A program made the position numbers and the translations under genes. From NCBI GenBank assembly GCA_024244665.1, contig JAAEOI010000712.1, positions 1 to 6,482 on the forward strand: a stretch of DNA of 6,482 bases, in the 5' to 3' direction. Of this stretch, positions 992 to 6,379 are shown one piece after another. The notes beneath the pieces are model-generated. The model was not told where the DNA came from. It ran no database searches and was given only the letters and a program-made list of their open reading frames with translations. Numbering within the stretch: position 1 is the first letter of the stretch; each line of letters begins with the position of its first letter. Source of the DNA: Bacteroidota bacterium (lineage in GTDB: Bacteria > Bacteroidota > Bacteroidia > Bacteroidales > GCA-2748055).

Positions 992-1066
992 ATGAGAAAG
1001 TTATTGTCGCAACCACGCTGCCTGTTCCTGTTACTGGCAGTTTCAATTACATTGGTATCATCAGCT
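992..1066 (+). other. Sec signal peptide (residues 1-25)
   Basis: Basic start MRK, a hydrophobic core LFLLLAVSITLV, and a probable signal peptidase I site after SSA, before Q26. The Cys at residue 10 lies ahead of the core and there is no lipobox at the cleavage point, so a lipoprotein is unlikely. Confidence 0.88.
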
Positions 1067-4000
1067 CAGAAAAAGAAAATCCGGGATGTCGAGATCATAC
1101 TAGAGTGTGTAGAATATATCGGGAATGAAAAATTCATAGCGAATTTCGGATATTATAACCCAAATAGTGCTGATGTAACTGTTGCTGACAGCAGCAGTGT
1201 CCTGATTTTCAATCAGGGTAATGACAAATGCAAAGCAGTAAATACATTTAAATCAGGGCGGCAATCTAATGTGCAAAGCAAAGAATTCTCATCCAAAGAC
1301 AGGGTTCTATGGCATATGGTCATGCCCAATGGAAAAGTAAAGGAAGTTACCGCCAGTGCCAATTCGAATCACTGTAGTGGTGCAGGGACTATCTCACCCT
1401 ATTATACCCCTCCGCCTGGTGATAAGCTTGATGGCATACCTATAGGTCCTGAGCTTAACGCATTATATGAGACATTTATGAGTCTGGGAAGTGCTGAATC
1501 AGATGAAATTTTTCAGATTAAAGAAGATTCTGTATTGATTGAGATTGCAGTGATGGCGAATCAATTTGAGGCCCTCCTGCTTAAGCTTGTCAATGAATAT
1601 GGTTTGAGGATTGTGTACAGTGAAGCAAATGACCTGGTTATTGTTGGTTGGATACCCATTGTTAACCTTTTTTCATTAAATGATCTGACTCTGTATATTA
1701 TTTTCGCCCGGCCTGCTTTCCCACCAATCCTGGAAAATTCCGGCGTGGCGATTAATCTAGGTGACTATTCAATGAGGTCGGATTTTGCACGTAATGGTTA
1801 TGATATTGATGGAGCAGGGTTCAAGGTTGGAGTATTATCCGACAGTTATAACACCCAGGGTGGAGCAGCTCTGGATGTTAGAAACGGGGATCTTCCCGGG
1901 CCAGGACCTCTTAATACCAATCTAAAGCCTGTTGATGTCCTGCTTGATTATCCAATTACATTCGGCTCCTTATCTGATGAAGGAAGAGCGATGCTGCAGA
2001 TAGTGCATGATATAGCACCCGGGGCTGAACTGGCTTTTCGTACCGGTTTTATCAGTGCCGGGGATCTGGCAGTCGGCATCAGGGAGCTGGCCTACGAAGC
2101 CGAATGTGATATCATTGTGGATGACATAACCTATATCAATGAACCCTTTTTCTCAGACGGAGTAGTCGCCCGGGCCGTTGATCAGGTGAGCGGAGATGGA
2201 GTAACCTATTTTTCGGCTGCAGGGAATTACGGCAGCAGGTCTCATGATGGTGTTTTTACGGTGGCGAAAGGAAATACCTCCAGGGATGTTCCAGGTGACG
2301 CCCATGATTTCGGAGGAGGTGATATATATCAAAGCATTTCCGTCGACGTAGGAAGCTACATTATTGTGTTGCAATGGGATGAAGTGAAACCCGCAGAAAC
2401 AGACCTTGACATATACCTTTCCAATGAAGATGGAACAACCCTCTTTGGGTTTAACCAGAACAATATTGGCAAGGAAGCGGTGGAAGTCCTTCCGTTTTTT
2501 GTAACTGGTGGCACTACTTCAACTAACATACTGATCAAAAGAGCCTCGGGATCGGCGGATGTTAATTTCAAATACATTGTATTCAAGGGTCTCCTTTCTA
2601 TCAATGAGTACAATTCTGGAAGTTCTACTATTGTGGGCCAGGCAAATGCCGCAGGAGCAATTACTGTCGGTGCGGTAAAATATGACAATACACCTGTATA
2701 CGGTGTGGATCCTGCCACGATTGCCTCCTTCTCCTCAGTGGGAGGAACACCTGTAGCTGGTGAGATCAGGGAAAAGCCGGATTTCACAGCCCCCAACGGA
2801 GTGGAAACAACCGTGGTTTTGAGCACTCATGATAGCGATGGTGATGGGTATTTCGACTTCCACGGTACATCCGCTTCTGCTCCACATGCAGCTGCGGTGG
2901 CTGCTTTGTTGAAGGAAGCCAAACTCAGGTACGATAGCGCGGGACTAAGTCCTGAAGAAATCAGGCTGATGATGCGGAACACCGCCCTGGATATGGGTGC
3001 ACCCGGCTTTGATTTTACAAGTGGATATGGATTTATACAGGCTGATGCAACCCTCTTAACATTTGTAGAGCCCACGCCTGTACTGGACCTTTTAGTAGTT
3101 CCGGAAGGGATTACCCCTGGAGAAGTGGAATTTACTGTAATTGCGAAAGGAGAATTCCTGACGAAAAGGACACAGATAATGTTCAGGGGTGAGGCCGTGG
3201 CATCTACATTTATAAATGAAAACGAACTGGAAGCTGTCATACCTGTATTCACCGGGAATCCGCCAATCCAGGCATTTACACCTCCAAAATCAAGCTCAGG
3301 GCTTGATGGTGGATTGACTGAGCCAGTCTTATTCTACGAAATTGAAAAACGTACTATAACAATAGTTGCGGACGATGCTACGAAAAAATATGGTGAAGGA
3401 ATTCCTGATCTGACCTTCTCCATTCTGGTTGACTCGGAGCCTTTGCAGCAAAACGACCTTTCCCCGGATGAGAAATCCCGGTTTTCAAGCATAAGCTTTG
3501 CAGAGGTTCCGTCCAGTACAGATGATGTTGGGAATTATGTTTTCAGACCTTTTATTGATCCCCCTCTGGGTTCGATAACAGACGAATCTGATACATTATA
3601 TGGGCTTGATATCGGGATCAGCGAAAAATTTGTAGTGGAATTCACGAATGGCATATTAAGGATTGAAAAACTATCACTGACAATAATTCCTGATAACCTG
3701 GAAATGACTTATGGTGATACAATTGTTGAATCCATGCTTTCATTTTCCTATGAACTTGAAGGATCAAGTGGTACAATAAGTGAAGAGGACAAACTAACAA
3801 TTCTGAATGCTGTAGAGGCCGAGCATACGGGGGCACTGACCGATGGTATAGCCCTTGTCAACGGCATAGCCCTTGTCAATGGTATAGCATTGGTTAATGG
3901 TATAGCTCTTGTCAACGGAATAGCCCTTGTCAATGGCATAGCGCTGGTGAATGGGGTTGAGGTAAAGGTAATAGACGGGCAAACAACCATAGGCGGAGAA

Positions 4001-6379
4001 CCGGTGGATCCATTATCACCTTTCTCGGATGGTATTGCACTGGTAAATGGCATCCCGCTTGTTAGTGCATTGGACATAACTAATGGAACTGCAATGATCC
4101 TTGGTATGGCAGTCGATATAGTCTTAGGGAAAATGGTCGCAATTGACGGTATCGCTCTGTCAGAAGGGATCGCTCTTGTGAATGGAATAGCGTTAGTGAA
4201 CGGAATTGCCCTGGTTAATGGTACAGATAGGATATTCGTTGATGATGGGCAGACCTACGTAAACGGAGATCTCGTTGATATCAACACAAATGAAGTGAAT
4301 GGCATTCCATTCATTAATGGGATTGCACTGGTGAATTCTGAAGACATTATCGATGGAACAGCAATGCTAAATAACACTGAGCTTGCCGTGGTTGATGGAA
4401 TTGCCCTTGTCAACGGAATTGCTCTTGTAAATGGGATTGCACTGGTCAACGGCATTGCCCTTGTAAACAGCGAGGGTAATACGGACATTGTTGATCTTGA
4501 GAATATGAACCTTATGGCAAGTGGTTTAGCTCTTGTCAATGGTCTTTCGCAAGCAAATGGAATAGCTCTTGTGAATGGGATTGCTCTGGTGAATGGCATA
4601 AACGAAAATATTCCTGGTGAATCGCTTGTCTCAGCTGCAAATTATCAGCTTCCTGATGGTACGGTAACGGACAGTGAAGGGAACGAAATTACTAGTGGAA
4701 TTGCACTTGTGAATGGGATTGCTCTGGTCAACGGCATTGCCCTGGTGAACAGCTCCATATTGGTGGATGGAATCGCACTGGTCAACGGAGTCCCATATAA
4801 TAGTGACGGCCCTCTTGCCAACAATGTGCCTTCTGCGGACAGCACAATAGTAAATGAGGAAAGCAATGCGGGTACCATCTTTGTTTTTGATGAGGATGAT
4901 TTTGAGGTGGCACAGGATGAAATCGTTTTTAATCCGATCAGCCTGATAACGGGTACTGAAGCCGGGAAACACTGGATTGTCCCCGGAACATACATCTCGA
5001 ATAATTTCAATATATCATACGGGTTGGGTATGCTAACTGTGTATAAGGCCGATATTGAGGTAACGACCGATAATATGGCTAAAACCTATGGTATGGATGA
5101 TCCGGATACTCTCACCTTTGGTATTACCCAGGGAGAGCTATTCGGTGAAGATCAGTTCAGCGGTTTATTGACCAGGGTGGAAGGGGATAATGTCGGGACA
5201 TATAACATTCTACAGGGAGATCTGAAAGCCGGTTCTAACTACGATCTCACTTTTAAGACTGGATTATTTACCATCAATGAGGCCAGTATAACCATCACTG
5301 CCGCTAATGCGAGCAAAACATATGGTATGGATGATCCTGATCTCATCTATGAGATTACAGGTGATTATGTAGAAGGAGATCTGATCAGCGGGGCATTGAA
5401 AAGAGAGACTGGGGATAATGTCGGGACTTATAACATTCTACAAGAATCACTGACGGCTGGAAATAATTACATAGTTACTTTTACAGGAGGGACTTTCACA
5501 ATTGAAAAAGCAACTCTTACGGTGACGGCTGATCTTCAGGTTATATTGGCCGGAGACGATCTGCCCGACTTTACCTTCACCTATACGGGTTTTGCATATG
5601 ATGAGGATGAAATGGATATATTCGGAGCAGACGGGCCATCACATTTACTTGAACCCGAATATTTGGGTAAGGCTGGAAGCTATCAGATAACAGCAGAAGG
5701 TGATGCATCGAATTATGTTATTACTGCAGTTTCCGGCACTCTGTATGTGAATCCTTCTGACAATCACACCAGGGCTGTCAGACCAGTATTAACATGTATT
5801 GAAGAATCAACTGATCAGCCTGGATTTACGTATGTGGCACACTATGAATATCAGAACAGGAATGCAACTGATATCTACTTGCCCGTTGGAGAGGATAATC
5901 TTATTATTGCTGAAGGAGACTACCAGGCAGTAGATCATCCGGTACTGTTTAAATCAGGGGGAGGCGATTTCGACGTGTATTTTAACGGGAGTAAACTGAC
6001 CTGGAAGATCACCAGTCTTGAATCGGGACGAAAAACTTCTGTCGCTTCTGATGCCAGCTCCGGTTCAACTCGTTGTAAGAAAGACAATGGCAAGAAGTCA
6101 GCAACCACGAGTTTGTCTGAAGTCACAACATTCCCGGACGAGGCATTTGGGGCATATCCCAACCCGGTTACAGATAGACTCATCATAAACCTGGAAAGCG
6201 AACCTAATTCTGAAAATGTCTATCTGATTGATGTACTGGGTAAGGTATCTCTCATACAGGCGGTACGTAAAGGGGAAAGAATCCTGGAGGTAGATATGGC
6301 CGAATTGAATTCTGGTATATATATGATTGGAGTTGATATGGGTGATTCGAGTAAATTATTCAGGATCATGAAGCACTGA
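992..6379 (+). CDS. Secreted S8/S53-like serine protease with MBG domains, IALVNG hexapeptide repeats and T9SS sorting domain
   Basis: This is a 1795-residue multidomain protein probably exported by Sec and then carried across the outer membrane by T9SS. Order by residue: signal peptide 1-25; Cys-bracketed β-sandwich ~32-130; probable propeptide ~175-245; subtilisin-fold peptidase ~250-690 with D284, E330, oxyanion N412 and nucleophile S627; β-sandwich insert ~420-533 inside the peptidase; IPT/TIG-like domain ~697-786; MBG1 ~788-894; MBG2 895-1353, split by the IALVNG region 952-1266; MBG3-5 ~1354-1588; second Cys-bracketed β-sandwich ~1594-1697; sorting domain ~1716-1795. The start is set by GGAGG at 983 and the signal peptide; the gene ends TGA followed by TAA. 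Likely role by inference: a cell-surface or released protease on a long β-rich stalk. The Glu in place of the catalytic His points to a sedolisin-like triad (known for S53), not yet shown for this protein. Substrate is unknown. Few genes are visible nearby, so operon context is silent. Confidence 0.93.
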   Translation: MRKLLSQPRCLFLLLAVSITLVSSAQKKKIRDVEIILECVEYIGNEKFIANFGYYNPNSADVTVADSSSVLIFNQGNDKCKAVNTFKSGRQSNVQSKEFSSKDRVLWHMVMPNGKVKEVTASANSNHCSGAGTISPYYTPPPGDKLDGIPIGPELNALYETFMSLGSAESDEIFQIKEDSVLIEIAVMANQFEALLLKLVNEYGLRIVYSEANDLVIVGWIPIVNLFSLNDLTLYIIFARPAFPPILENSGVAINLGDYSMRSDFARNGYDIDGAGFKVGVLSDSYNTQGGAALDVRNGDLPGPGPLNTNLKPVDVLLDYPITFGSLSDEGRAMLQIVHDIAPGAELAFRTGFISAGDLAVGIRELAYEAECDIIVDDITYINEPFFSDGVVARAVDQVSGDGVTYFSAAGNYGSRSHDGVFTVAKGNTSRDVPGDAHDFGGGDIYQSISVDVGSYIIVLQWDEVKPAETDLDIYLSNEDGTTLFGFNQNNIGKEAVEVLPFFVTGGTTSTNILIKRASGSADVNFKYIVFKGLLSINEYNSGSSTIVGQANAAGAITVGAVKYDNTPVYGVDPATIASFSSVGGTPVAGEIREKPDFTAPNGVETTVVLSTHDSDGDGYFDFHGTSASAPHAAAVAALLKEAKLRYDSAGLSPEEIRLMMRNTALDMGAPGFDFTSGYGFIQADATLLTFVEPTPVLDLLVVPEGITPGEVEFTVIAKGEFLTKRTQIMFRGEAVASTFINENELEAVIPVFTGNPPIQAFTPPKSSSGLDGGLTEPVLFYEIEKRTITIVADDATKKYGEGIPDLTFSILVDSEPLQQNDLSPDEKSRFSSISFAEVPSSTDDVGNYVFRPFIDPPLGSITDESDTLYGLDIGISEKFVVEFTNGILRIEKLSLTIIPDNLEMTYGDTIVESMLSFSYELEGSSGTISEEDKLTILNAVEAEHTGALTDGIALVNGIALVNGIALVNGIALVNGIALVNGIALVNGVEVKVIDGQTTIGGEPVDPLSPFSDGIALVNGIPLVSALDITNGTAMILGMAVDIVLGKMVAIDGIALSEGIALVNGIALVNGIALVNGTDRIFVDDGQTYVNGDLVDINTNEVNGIPFINGIALVNSEDIIDGTAMLNNTELAVVDGIALVNGIALVNGIALVNGIALVNSEGNTDIVDLENMNLMASGLALVNGLSQANGIALVNGIALVNGINENIPGESLVSAANYQLPDGTVTDSEGNEITSGIALVNGIALVNGIALVNSSILVDGIALVNGVPYNSDGPLANNVPSADSTIVNEESNAGTIFVFDEDDFEVAQDEIVFNPISLITGTEAGKHWIVPGTYISNNFNISYGLGMLTVYKADIEVTTDNMAKTYGMDDPDTLTFGITQGELFGEDQFSGLLTRVEGDNVGTYNILQGDLKAGSNYDLTFKTGLFTINEASITITAANASKTYGMDDPDLIYEITGDYVEGDLISGALKRETGDNVGTYNILQESLTAGNNYIVTFTGGTFTIEKATLTVTADLQVILAGDDLPDFTFTYTGFAYDEDEMDIFGADGPSHLLEPEYLGKAGSYQITAEGDASNYVITAVSGTLYVNPSDNHTRAVRPVLTCIEESTDQPGFTYVAHYEYQNRNATDIYLPVGEDNLIIAEGDYQAVDHPVLFKSGGGDFDVYFNGSKLTWKITSLESGRKTSVASDASSGSTRCKKDNGKKSATTSLSEVTTFPDEAFGAYPNPVTDRLIINLESEPNSENVYLIDVLGKVSLIQAVRKGERILEVDMAELNSGIYMIGVDMGDSSKLFRIMKH
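1085..1381 (+). other. N-terminal Cys-bracketed β-sandwich domain, copy 1 (residues ~32-130)
   Basis: The domain starts ILECVEY (C39), has YYNPNSADVTV and FKSGRQSNV in the middle and LWHM near the end, and closes SANSNHC (C128). It has an extra Cys at 80. The pattern 'x-x-C, YxNPN, FxxGR, LxW' recalls a small β-sandwich found in bacterial secreted proteins, but I cannot give a firm family name. A related copy stands near the C-terminus (5771-6082). Confidence 0.65.
1514..1726 (+). other. Probable protease propeptide (residues ~175-245)
   Basis: The segment lies just before the peptidase and alternates β and α: VLIEIAVMANQ, then FEALLLKLVNEYG, then LRIVYSEANDLVIVGWIP, then a short helix and ending TLYIIFARPAFPP. 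That order fits the intramolecular chaperone and inhibitor regions that precede subtilisin-like enzymes. Whether it is cleaved is unknown. Confidence 0.55.
1739..3061 (+). other. Subtilisin-fold peptidase domain with Glu in the His position (residues ~250-690)
   Basis: The Asp motif is KVGVLSDSYN (D284). Where S8 enzymes have HGTxVA, this has DEGRAMLQIVHDIAPGAEL, with E330 in the His position; the downstream IAPGA matches the usual VAPxA. The oxyanion segment is FSAAGNYG (N412), and the nucleophile motif is HGTSASAPHAAAVAALL (S627). The triad is therefore Asp-Glu-Ser, as in S53/sedolisin enzymes, but the oxyanion residue is the Asn typical of S8. A D-x-D-x-D-G loop (D614, D616, D618) just before S627 could bind calcium. 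The family assignment is strong; activity is inferred. H339, in IVHDIAP, is a less likely alternative base because it lies past the expected place. Confidence 0.85.
2249..2590 (+). other. β-sandwich inserted in the peptidase (residues ~420-533), PPC-like
   Basis: The distance from oxyanion N412 to S627 is 215 residues, against about 65 in subtilisin. The extra piece reads as β-strands resembling a bacterial pre-peptidase C-terminal (PPC) domain: YQSISVDVGSYIIVLQWDE, then TDLDIYLSNEDG, then TNILIKRASG, then FKYIVF. After it the peptidase resumes with GAITVGAV. The PPC name is by resemblance only. Confidence 0.6.
3080..3349 (+). other. IPT/TIG-like Ig domain (residues ~697-786)
   Basis: The segment VEFTVIAKGEFLTKRTQIMF followed by RGEAVASTFINENELEAVIP matches the IPT/TIG pattern (strand, G-x-F, strand, test of 'name and value' strands, ending in a xxVIP strand). 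These are spacer or carbohydrate-associated Ig folds. It is linked to MBG1 by a Ser/Gly-rich stretch. Confidence 0.55.
3353..3673 (+). other. MBG-type domain 1 (residues ~788-894)
   Basis: It opens TITIVADDATKKYGEGIPDL and closes VVEFTNGILRIEK, the start and end motifs of MBG domains (the YG-x-x-x-P and F-x-x-G-x-L-x-I pattern). A middle insertion makes it longer than domains 3 and 4. Confidence 0.72.
3674..3844 (+). other. MBG-type domain 2, first half (residues 895-951)
   Basis: It opens LSLTIIPDNLEMTYGD, a proper MBG start, and runs through LSFSYELEG to EAEHTGALTD. No closing GxLxI motif follows; the IALVNG region begins instead. The missing half appears at 4790-5050. Confidence 0.65.
3956..4222 (+). 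repeat. Higher-order repeat, copy A (residues 989-1077)
   Basis: Order of landmarks: VKVIDGQTTIGGEPVD, then SDGIALVNGIPLVS, then DITNGTAM, then MVAIDGIAL, then three IALVNG units. The same order occurs in copy B. The DGQT motifs start at residues 995 and 1085, 90 residues apart. Confidence 0.8.
4223..4471 (+). repeat. Higher-order repeat, copy B (residues 1078-1160)
   Basis: Order of landmarks: IFVDDGQTYVNGDLVD, then NGIPFINGIALVNS, then DIIDGTAM, then LAVVDGIAL and a run of four IALVN units. It aligns to copy A with a few residues missing in the middle. The later part of the region (4472-4789) keeps the hexapeptides but not the DGQT and GTAM landmarks. Confidence 0.8.
4790..5050 (+). other. 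MBG-type domain 2, second half (residues 1267-1353)
   Basis: After an acidic, low-complexity linker the chain reads WIVPGTYISNNFNISYGLG and closes MLTVYKA. That is the GTY...NY...G.L.V end of an MBG domain, which lacks its own start motif and so completes the half at 3674-3844. Confidence 0.65.
5051..5755 (+). other. MBG-type domains 3, 4 and 5 (residues ~1354-1588)
   Basis: Three tandem domains of about 76-80 residues. Domains 3 and 4 share KTYGMDDPD and GDNVGTYNIL and close LFTINEA and TFTIEKA. Domain 5 (TLTVTADLQVILAGDDLPDF ... SGTLYVNP) is more divergent, with the YG pair replaced by AG. Such domains usually serve as stalk or adhesive modules in surface proteins. Confidence 0.82.
5771..6082 (+). 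other. C-terminal Cys-bracketed β-sandwich domain, copy 2 (residues ~1594-1697)
   Basis: It starts VRPVLTCIEES (C1602), has YEYQNRNATDIYLPV, then LFKSGGGDF and LTWKI, and closes GSTRCK (C1695). The landmarks align with copy 1 at 1085-1381: L-x-C, Y-x-N/Q-x-N, FKSG, L-x-W, final Cys. The spacing of first to last Cys is 93 residues here and 89 in copy 1. Confidence 0.7.
6137..6376 (+). other. T9SS type A sorting domain (residues ~1716-1795)
   Basis: The domain opens AYPNPVTDRLIINL, continues YLIDVLGKV and LNSGIYMIGVD, and ends LFRIMKH, as the type A C-terminal signals do. Substrates with it cross the outer membrane through T9SS and are usually anchored or released after the domain is cut off. 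A Lys/Ser-rich linker precedes it. Confidence 0.93.

Follow-up and report, generated by a model that had tools for sequence, protein, structure and literature searches.

A lineage-specific hexapeptide array inserted in an MBG domain of a predicted secreted S8-type protein of Bacteroidota

The window analysed here is a stretch of 6,482 nucleotides, positions 1 to 6,482 of contig JAAEOI010000712.1 from a Bacteroidota bacterium (assembly GCA_024244665.1). It encodes a predicted secreted, protease-like protein in which the hexapeptide IALVNG recurs as an array. Comparison of this array with those of related proteins shows that selection maintains the unit peptide, yet that all units are able to change together between related proteins. 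This suggests selection for copies that match one another. The preliminary description of the array was made without relatives, and missed its position as an MBG insert, its recurrence in a family, the 12-residue spacing common in long arrays and the lineage-specific unit.

Composition and coding sequence of the array

The array contains 21 IALVN and one LALVN (residue 1179). The IALVN units fall into eight runs of 6, 1, 3, 1, 4, 2, 3 and 1, separate from the LALVN, and 18 full IALVNG units were counted. This recount agrees with the earlier report of 21 IALVN and one LALVN in eight clusters, with runs of up to six. The elements lie as follows, all on the + strand.

3845..4789, +: array, residues 952-1266, comprising 21 IALVN, one LALVN and spacers
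3848..3955, +: six-unit IALVNG run, with a 54-bp homogenisation trace inside (see below)
4034..4051, +: lone IALVNG unit
4169..4222, +: three-unit run
4322..4339, +: lone IALVNS unit
4400..4471, +: four-unit run
4526..4543, +: LALVNG unit
4562..4597, +: two-unit run
4700..4753, +: three-unit run
4772..4789, +: final IALVNG unit

The spacers, which total 174 residues (31 D/E, 3 K/R and 16 N), had been called acidic and Asn-rich. They are acidic, D/E making up 18% of their residues and 13.5% of those of the whole protein; the Asn enrichment is modest (9% against 6.5%). IALVN appeared at most once per shuffle, both in 2000 shuffles of the whole protein and in 5000 shuffles of residues 950-1266, and a chance origin of the array is therefore excluded. 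The program TRF reported only imperfect periods of 18, 36 and 54 bp (76-89% matches). Open frames on the minus strand over the array (3748-4077, 4255-4599 and 4645-5010) read as LTRAIPL-type repeats because of the 18-base periodicity.

The 18 IALVNG units are encoded by 18 distinct DNA words, with a mean pairwise difference of 4.17 bases compared with 4.32 ± 0.18 for random synonymous choice. The whole array is therefore not a recent duplication, and is unlikely to be an artefact of repeat assembly. All copies of the commonest hexapeptide were distinct at the DNA level in 10 of 12 named loci, 15 further loci departed from random codon choice by z values of +0.7 to -3.0, and in L036 all 16 unit DNA words were distinct (4.03 bases observed, 4.03 expected).

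The constraint on the peptide is seen in LRGIVS, of which five related genomes each have seven units at the place corresponding to the window array. In every one of the ten pairs of these orthologues, none of the 42 unit residues had changed, while 14-32 of the 42 unit codons differed synonymously and residue differences over the rest of the frame ranged from 44/993 to 371/919 (4-40%). Selection therefore holds the peptide. The combination of scrambled codons and an unchanged peptide makes a DNA- or RNA-level signal an unlikely cause, and likewise recent copying.

Uniformity within proteins and switches between them

Arrays were found at the corresponding place in relatives, with a different unit in different lineages. 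In addition to LRGIVS we found GYALVN (16 copies), IKSVVN (5), GKAIVA (6), ARPLVN (6), NGVPFI (13), GIPMVD (25), FAMVN (7), MPIVN (11), RQLVN (8), KAIVN (10), RALVN (11), TALVN (5) and VAMVN (5). GTVRSN (6) is spaced by 8 residues where adjacent, TRAN (10) by 6 or 7 where adjacent, and LALVN (11, as GQALALVN) by 8 in another relative. The units of any one protein are mostly alike, with variants in some proteins (ARALVN in L039; VPY and VPL in L040; AVRSN and TTRAN in L042). The nearest relative of the window protein, L006 from a Bacteroidota metagenome-assembled genome, is its sister in the tree, with 58.5% identity over 1589 aligned residues, and carries IPLVNG at many sites that are IALVNG in the window. 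L001 (IAL/IPL) and L003 (TAL/LAL), both from one assembly, have different units; L005 and L007 of another assembly also differ, less sharply.

Two classes of array were distinguished. The long class has an insert of about 350 residues with some 20 units, often 12 apart, for example RGIALVNGIPVV; the short class has mostly 4-8 TALVN-type units, which can be single and dispersed. Long-class statistics were based on 45 aligned rows and 19 unit columns. At the third residue of the unit, pairs within the same protein agreed at 0.884 (6584 pairs), compared with 0.734 between proteins in the same column (16245 pairs) and 0.731 in other columns; the maximum in 500 within-column shuffles, which ignore kinship among proteins, was 0.745. 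For the first residue, protein and position each had an effect, with agreement of 0.446 within a protein, 0.386 in the same column and 0.270 otherwise. The Asn position of the unit had a pairwise identity of 0.987-0.988. The short class, with 82 rows and 7 unit columns, showed an effect at the first residue (0.829 against 0.734), a small one at the third (0.906 against 0.881) and none at the second (0.808 against 0.811).

Unit replacement was followed on a tree of 62 chosen proteins, built with the array left out, and in six protein pairs compared unit by unit. P0051 and P0166 are sisters in this tree, with 80.7% identity overall, and GTALVN of the former is GVAMVN in the latter in 5/5 units. 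At the same five places P0060 carries GSALVN where P0051 has GTALVN, again 5/5. GLALVN of P0111 is replaced by QSALVN in 5/6 units of P0165, and LKAIVN of P0188 by LKAVVN in 8/10 units of P0191. The unit was kept in 11/14 positions between P0040 and P0043, and R was replaced by K in part of the units between P0074 and P0055. An array that looks half-way is that of L061, which is 71.8% identical to L060: the third residue is L in 20/21 units of L060, and the 20 units of L061 have V (12), M (3), L (3), I (1) or F (1) at this position.

Two further arrays were noted in passing. In L066, GFGMVN and GFAMVN units occur together and their DNA is unusually alike (4 distinct words for 7 FAMVN); the array, partly unread (X), is possibly a young switch in progress. 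In L063, which carries the 25 GIPMVD units, blocks with similar spacers (PFVN..., YARVNG...) were seen by eye to occur twice, as if whole blocks, and not units alone, had been duplicated.

Host protein, family and fold prediction

The array lies in an open reading frame of 1795 residues (992..6379, + strand), the sole long gene of the window. Its features outside the array are given below.

992..6379, +: predicted secreted protein, with signal peptide, S8-type protease domain, array-bearing MBG domains, and a C-terminal tail of the type IX secretion system (T9SS)
992..1066, +: likely signal peptide, residues 1-25 (MRKLLSQPRCLFLLLAVSITLVSSA), read by eye from the translation
2618..3031, +: S8 (subtilase) match, PF00082, residues 543-680 (63.5 bits, cut-off 21.8)
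3677..3838, +: N-terminal half of the host MBG domain, residues 896-949, from alignment to relatives (block pLDDT, the predicted local distance difference test score of AlphaFold, 78-85)
4868..5047, +: C-terminal half of the host MBG domain, residues ~1293-1352 (ISLITGTEAGKHWIVPGTYISNNFNISYGLGMLTV and the preceding part), from alignment to L006
5288..5500, +: best MBG_2 match, PF18676, residues 1433-1503 (152.9 bits, cut-off 25)
6155..6352, +: T9SS type A sorting domain, PF18962, residues 1722-1787 (37.4 bits, cut-off 27)

The protein thus has an S8 domain (PF00082), MBG_2 (PF18676, matched by Pfam in four stretches) and a type A C-terminal sorting domain, the last also matched by TIGR04183 of NCBIfam (residues 1722-1794, 38.1 bits, cut-off 23). 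These matches identify it as a probable secreted, protease-like surface protein and T9SS cargo, and the earlier designation as a secreted protease holds in this sense. The Ser motif of the S8 domain, GTSAS, is at residue 625 in the context FHGTSAS. S8 subtilases have an Asp-His-Ser triad, with a His motif of the HGTH type. On reading the window protein no such canonical His motif was found, its single HGT lying within the Ser motif. The protease may have an altered active site, perhaps of a sedolisin-like kind, or may be inactive. A motif DEGRA[ML], present in 165/191 family proteins and at residues 329-334 of the window protein (nt 1976-1993), was placed by eye about where the S8 His motif would be expected. 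Upstream, the window holds at 3-311 the 3′ end of another gene, which by eye resembles a sensor histidine kinase at its ATP-binding end (FDPFFTTKPRGEGTGIGLDIVKKII).

Alignment to relatives indicates that the array is an insert that splits a single MBG domain into an N-terminal and a C-terminal half. In the AlphaFold model the block pLDDT of the C-terminal half climbs from ~30 to 84 along its length.

To collect the family, residues 900-1345 were used as a query, giving 82 proteins with E values up to 0.001, most of which also have S8 and T9SS-tail Pfam domains; one member, P0078, is named as coming from Owenweeksia hongkongensis. Queries with P0007 and P0070 gave 138 and 159 proteins, 120 of each being among the matches listed; each family search scored only some 8000 candidates, those sharing most words. 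In 185 of 191 proteins, the window's included, some five-letter word occurs at least 4 times within 400 residues, an upper figure since a few of these words stem from other repeats. The family is one of large, predicted secreted proteins of S8 type that end in a T9SS tail and carry the array as a lineage-diversified insert in one MBG domain. Among 395 genomes drawn from the phylum, the array profile had matches in 4 (one of them false) and the short-class query in 4, both counts including the centre genome G001, which was picked for having an array. Arrays were frequent in some groups: matches, read in part, occurred in 15/99 relatives of G306, 15/198 of G002 and 4/198 of G001, centres included.

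The statement that the array belongs to no recognised family has so far stood. The array matched nothing in Pfam or NCBIfam above any cut-off, array profile A4 had 0 matches to PDB sequences up to E 1, the hexapeptide-repeat (left-handed β-helix, LbetaH) model was absent among the five Pfam families matched at E up to 0.1, and in these searches no repeat family that is already described and has a known fold was matched with confidence. A sub-threshold Pfam match to the Pam3 baseplate plug gp18 (PF22479) covers residues 1128-1173 inside the array, and PF22479 is also precomputed for some relatives, such as P0010, P0011 and P0016. AlphaFold2 placed short strands in the array, yet most residues had pLDDT <50; in a model of a slice of the window protein the first hundred array residues had pLDDT 29-73. 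Fold comparisons for the array were weak. The hairpin, meander, cross-β and left-handed helix proposed in the preliminary description are none of them confidently favoured by the AlphaFold model. As AlphaFold gives no confident fold for the array, we infer its fold and function.

Explanations and comparison with known systems

The best explanation, which we regard as quite possible, is that like units stack on like as β-structure within the molecule, the constraint being self-matching. Each unit would form a short β-strand and a tight turn, and the units would stack inside the molecule as a solenoid, arcade or sheet, with the side chains of each unit resting on identical side chains of the next. 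A unit would then have to equal its neighbours, with no fixed sequence needed: any self-compatible hexapeptide would serve, a lone mutant unit would be penalised, and switches would sweep all units. By a further step, the stack might be displayed at the cell surface next to the protease domain, as a rigid or an adhesive element. Like-on-like stacking would account for a motif that is arbitrary and uniform, is frozen within lineages and is switched wholesale. The different units of L001 and L003 in one assembly argue for intramolecular contacts rather than one partner shared in the cell, and a spacing of 6 or 12, or of 8 in others, suits strand-turn units. Parallel cross-β structures stack identical residues and form amide ladders, according to the review PMC9201691; in the long class the Asn position of the unit is nearly constant (0.987-0.988). 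Some observations weigh against self-matching: AlphaFold models do not show a like-on-like stack, in mixed arrays like that of L061 different units are tolerated to some degree, and unit DNA is in places more alike than random codon choice predicts, as described below.

The main rival is a multivalent array in which each unit docks one external partner (a receptor, glycan-adding enzyme, chaperone or prey surface), the partner fixing the hexapeptide and all units following its change. We consider this unlikely but a serious candidate. It covers uniformity, the LRGIVS freeze and coordinated switching, and would suit the single, dispersed units of the short class; however, L001 and L003 would need at least two partners, and the first-residue position effect (0.386 in the same column against 0.270) is not predicted by a single motif. 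No LRGIVS runs were found outside the LRGIVS array protein in any of the five genomes searched (5/5), although a partner need not carry the motif.

It is doubtful that the arrays instead polymerise in register between neighbouring molecules or cells, as a functional amyloid in which the lineage unit sets who joins. The sequence evidence for this intermolecular cross-β structure is identical to that for the self-matching stack, and does not separate between-molecule from within-molecule contacts; the units are hydrophobic and strand-like, and stacking of identical residues in register is said in PMC9201691 to be almost universal in parallel amyloids. Against it, Asp- and Arg-containing units (GIPMVD, LRGIVS) would stack like charges, and spacer order is conserved among eight aligned arrays, as in a folded domain. 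A broader proposal is an arbitrary self-matching code, in which selection acts on the equality of copies and lineages drift between codes; if intermolecular, it could provide homotypic recognition or polymerisation at the surface with species- or strain-specific tags. This is improbable on present evidence.

A similarly low probability is given to DNA-level concerted evolution alone, in which the units would stay alike through unequal crossing-over and gene conversion and would mean little for function. Most loci tested do lean towards DNA likeness: diversity was below random choice in 10/12, 12/15 and 7/8 loci of three locus sets. Likeness was strong in L004 (2.75 against 4.15 ± 0.35) and L002, and equally so in L008, L063 and L066 (z -4.5, -3.4 and -4.2). 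In the six-unit run of the window, copies at a 54-bp offset had 4 differences where 10.8 were expected (P 0.001, one of 12 tests). This residual likeness indicates that duplication or conversion episodes do happen, and they may be the route by which a new unit spreads. As a sole cause, concerted evolution is already weakened: synonymous diversity is at or near saturation without residue change, and the dispersed short-class units fall below the length for ordinary recombination. In the close pair L043/L044, third-base identity was 0.62 between orthologous units (21 sites) and 0.33 between non-orthologous units, with 0.73 in the rest of the gene, which argues against recent exchange. Pooling 17 pairs gave 0.485 and 0.440, respectively, pairs other than L043/L044 being saturated or nearly so and saying little on exchange.

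Finally, a multi-copy precursor from which hexapeptides are cut, perhaps by the protein's own protease, as species-specific signals is very improbable: many uniform lineage-specific copies, scrambled codons, a joined protease domain and an Arg that often precedes the unit in relatives (RGIALVNG) would fit it, but the runs are head-to-tail without separators, no Arg precedes the units of the window, L006 or L008, the first residue depends on position and spacers are conserved between relatives.

The domains around the array are already known; no description of the array family or of the unit-matching rule was found in the searches made, which covered open-licence PubMed Central texts only. Repeats are usually alike from recent copying, or variable where positions do not matter. 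Here the copies are identical at all six positions with scrambled codons, and in another lineage they have switched jointly. This makes it testable whether selection can act on how well a protein matches itself internally. The arrays also provide a natural set of hexapeptides that may stack on themselves, among them IALVNG, GYALVN, LRGIVS and IKSVVN, for work on β-sheet packing and materials.

Among known systems, MBG domains (PF18676 MBG_2 and PF18887 MBG_3) flank the array and, by alignment, host it; their models do not cover the array, which divides one MBG domain in two. LbetaH proteins have hexapeptide repeats of aliphatic and small residues, and the window array shares this six-residue period and composition. 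It differs from them in having no Pfam hexapeptide-family match, in the spacings of 7, 8 and 12 among its relatives and in the wholesale replacement of the unit between lineages. The yeast α-factor and FMRFamide precursors are multi-copy peptide precursors with identical short copies, diverged codons and species specificity. The array has these properties in common with them, and differs in its separator-free runs, conserved spacers and position effects. The likeness to parallel in-register cross-β and β-solenoid amyloids such as HET-s, as presented in PMC9201691, is that like-on-like stacking would explain uniform units; unlike in those amyloids, the copies of the array sit in one chain, within a domain of a surface protein.
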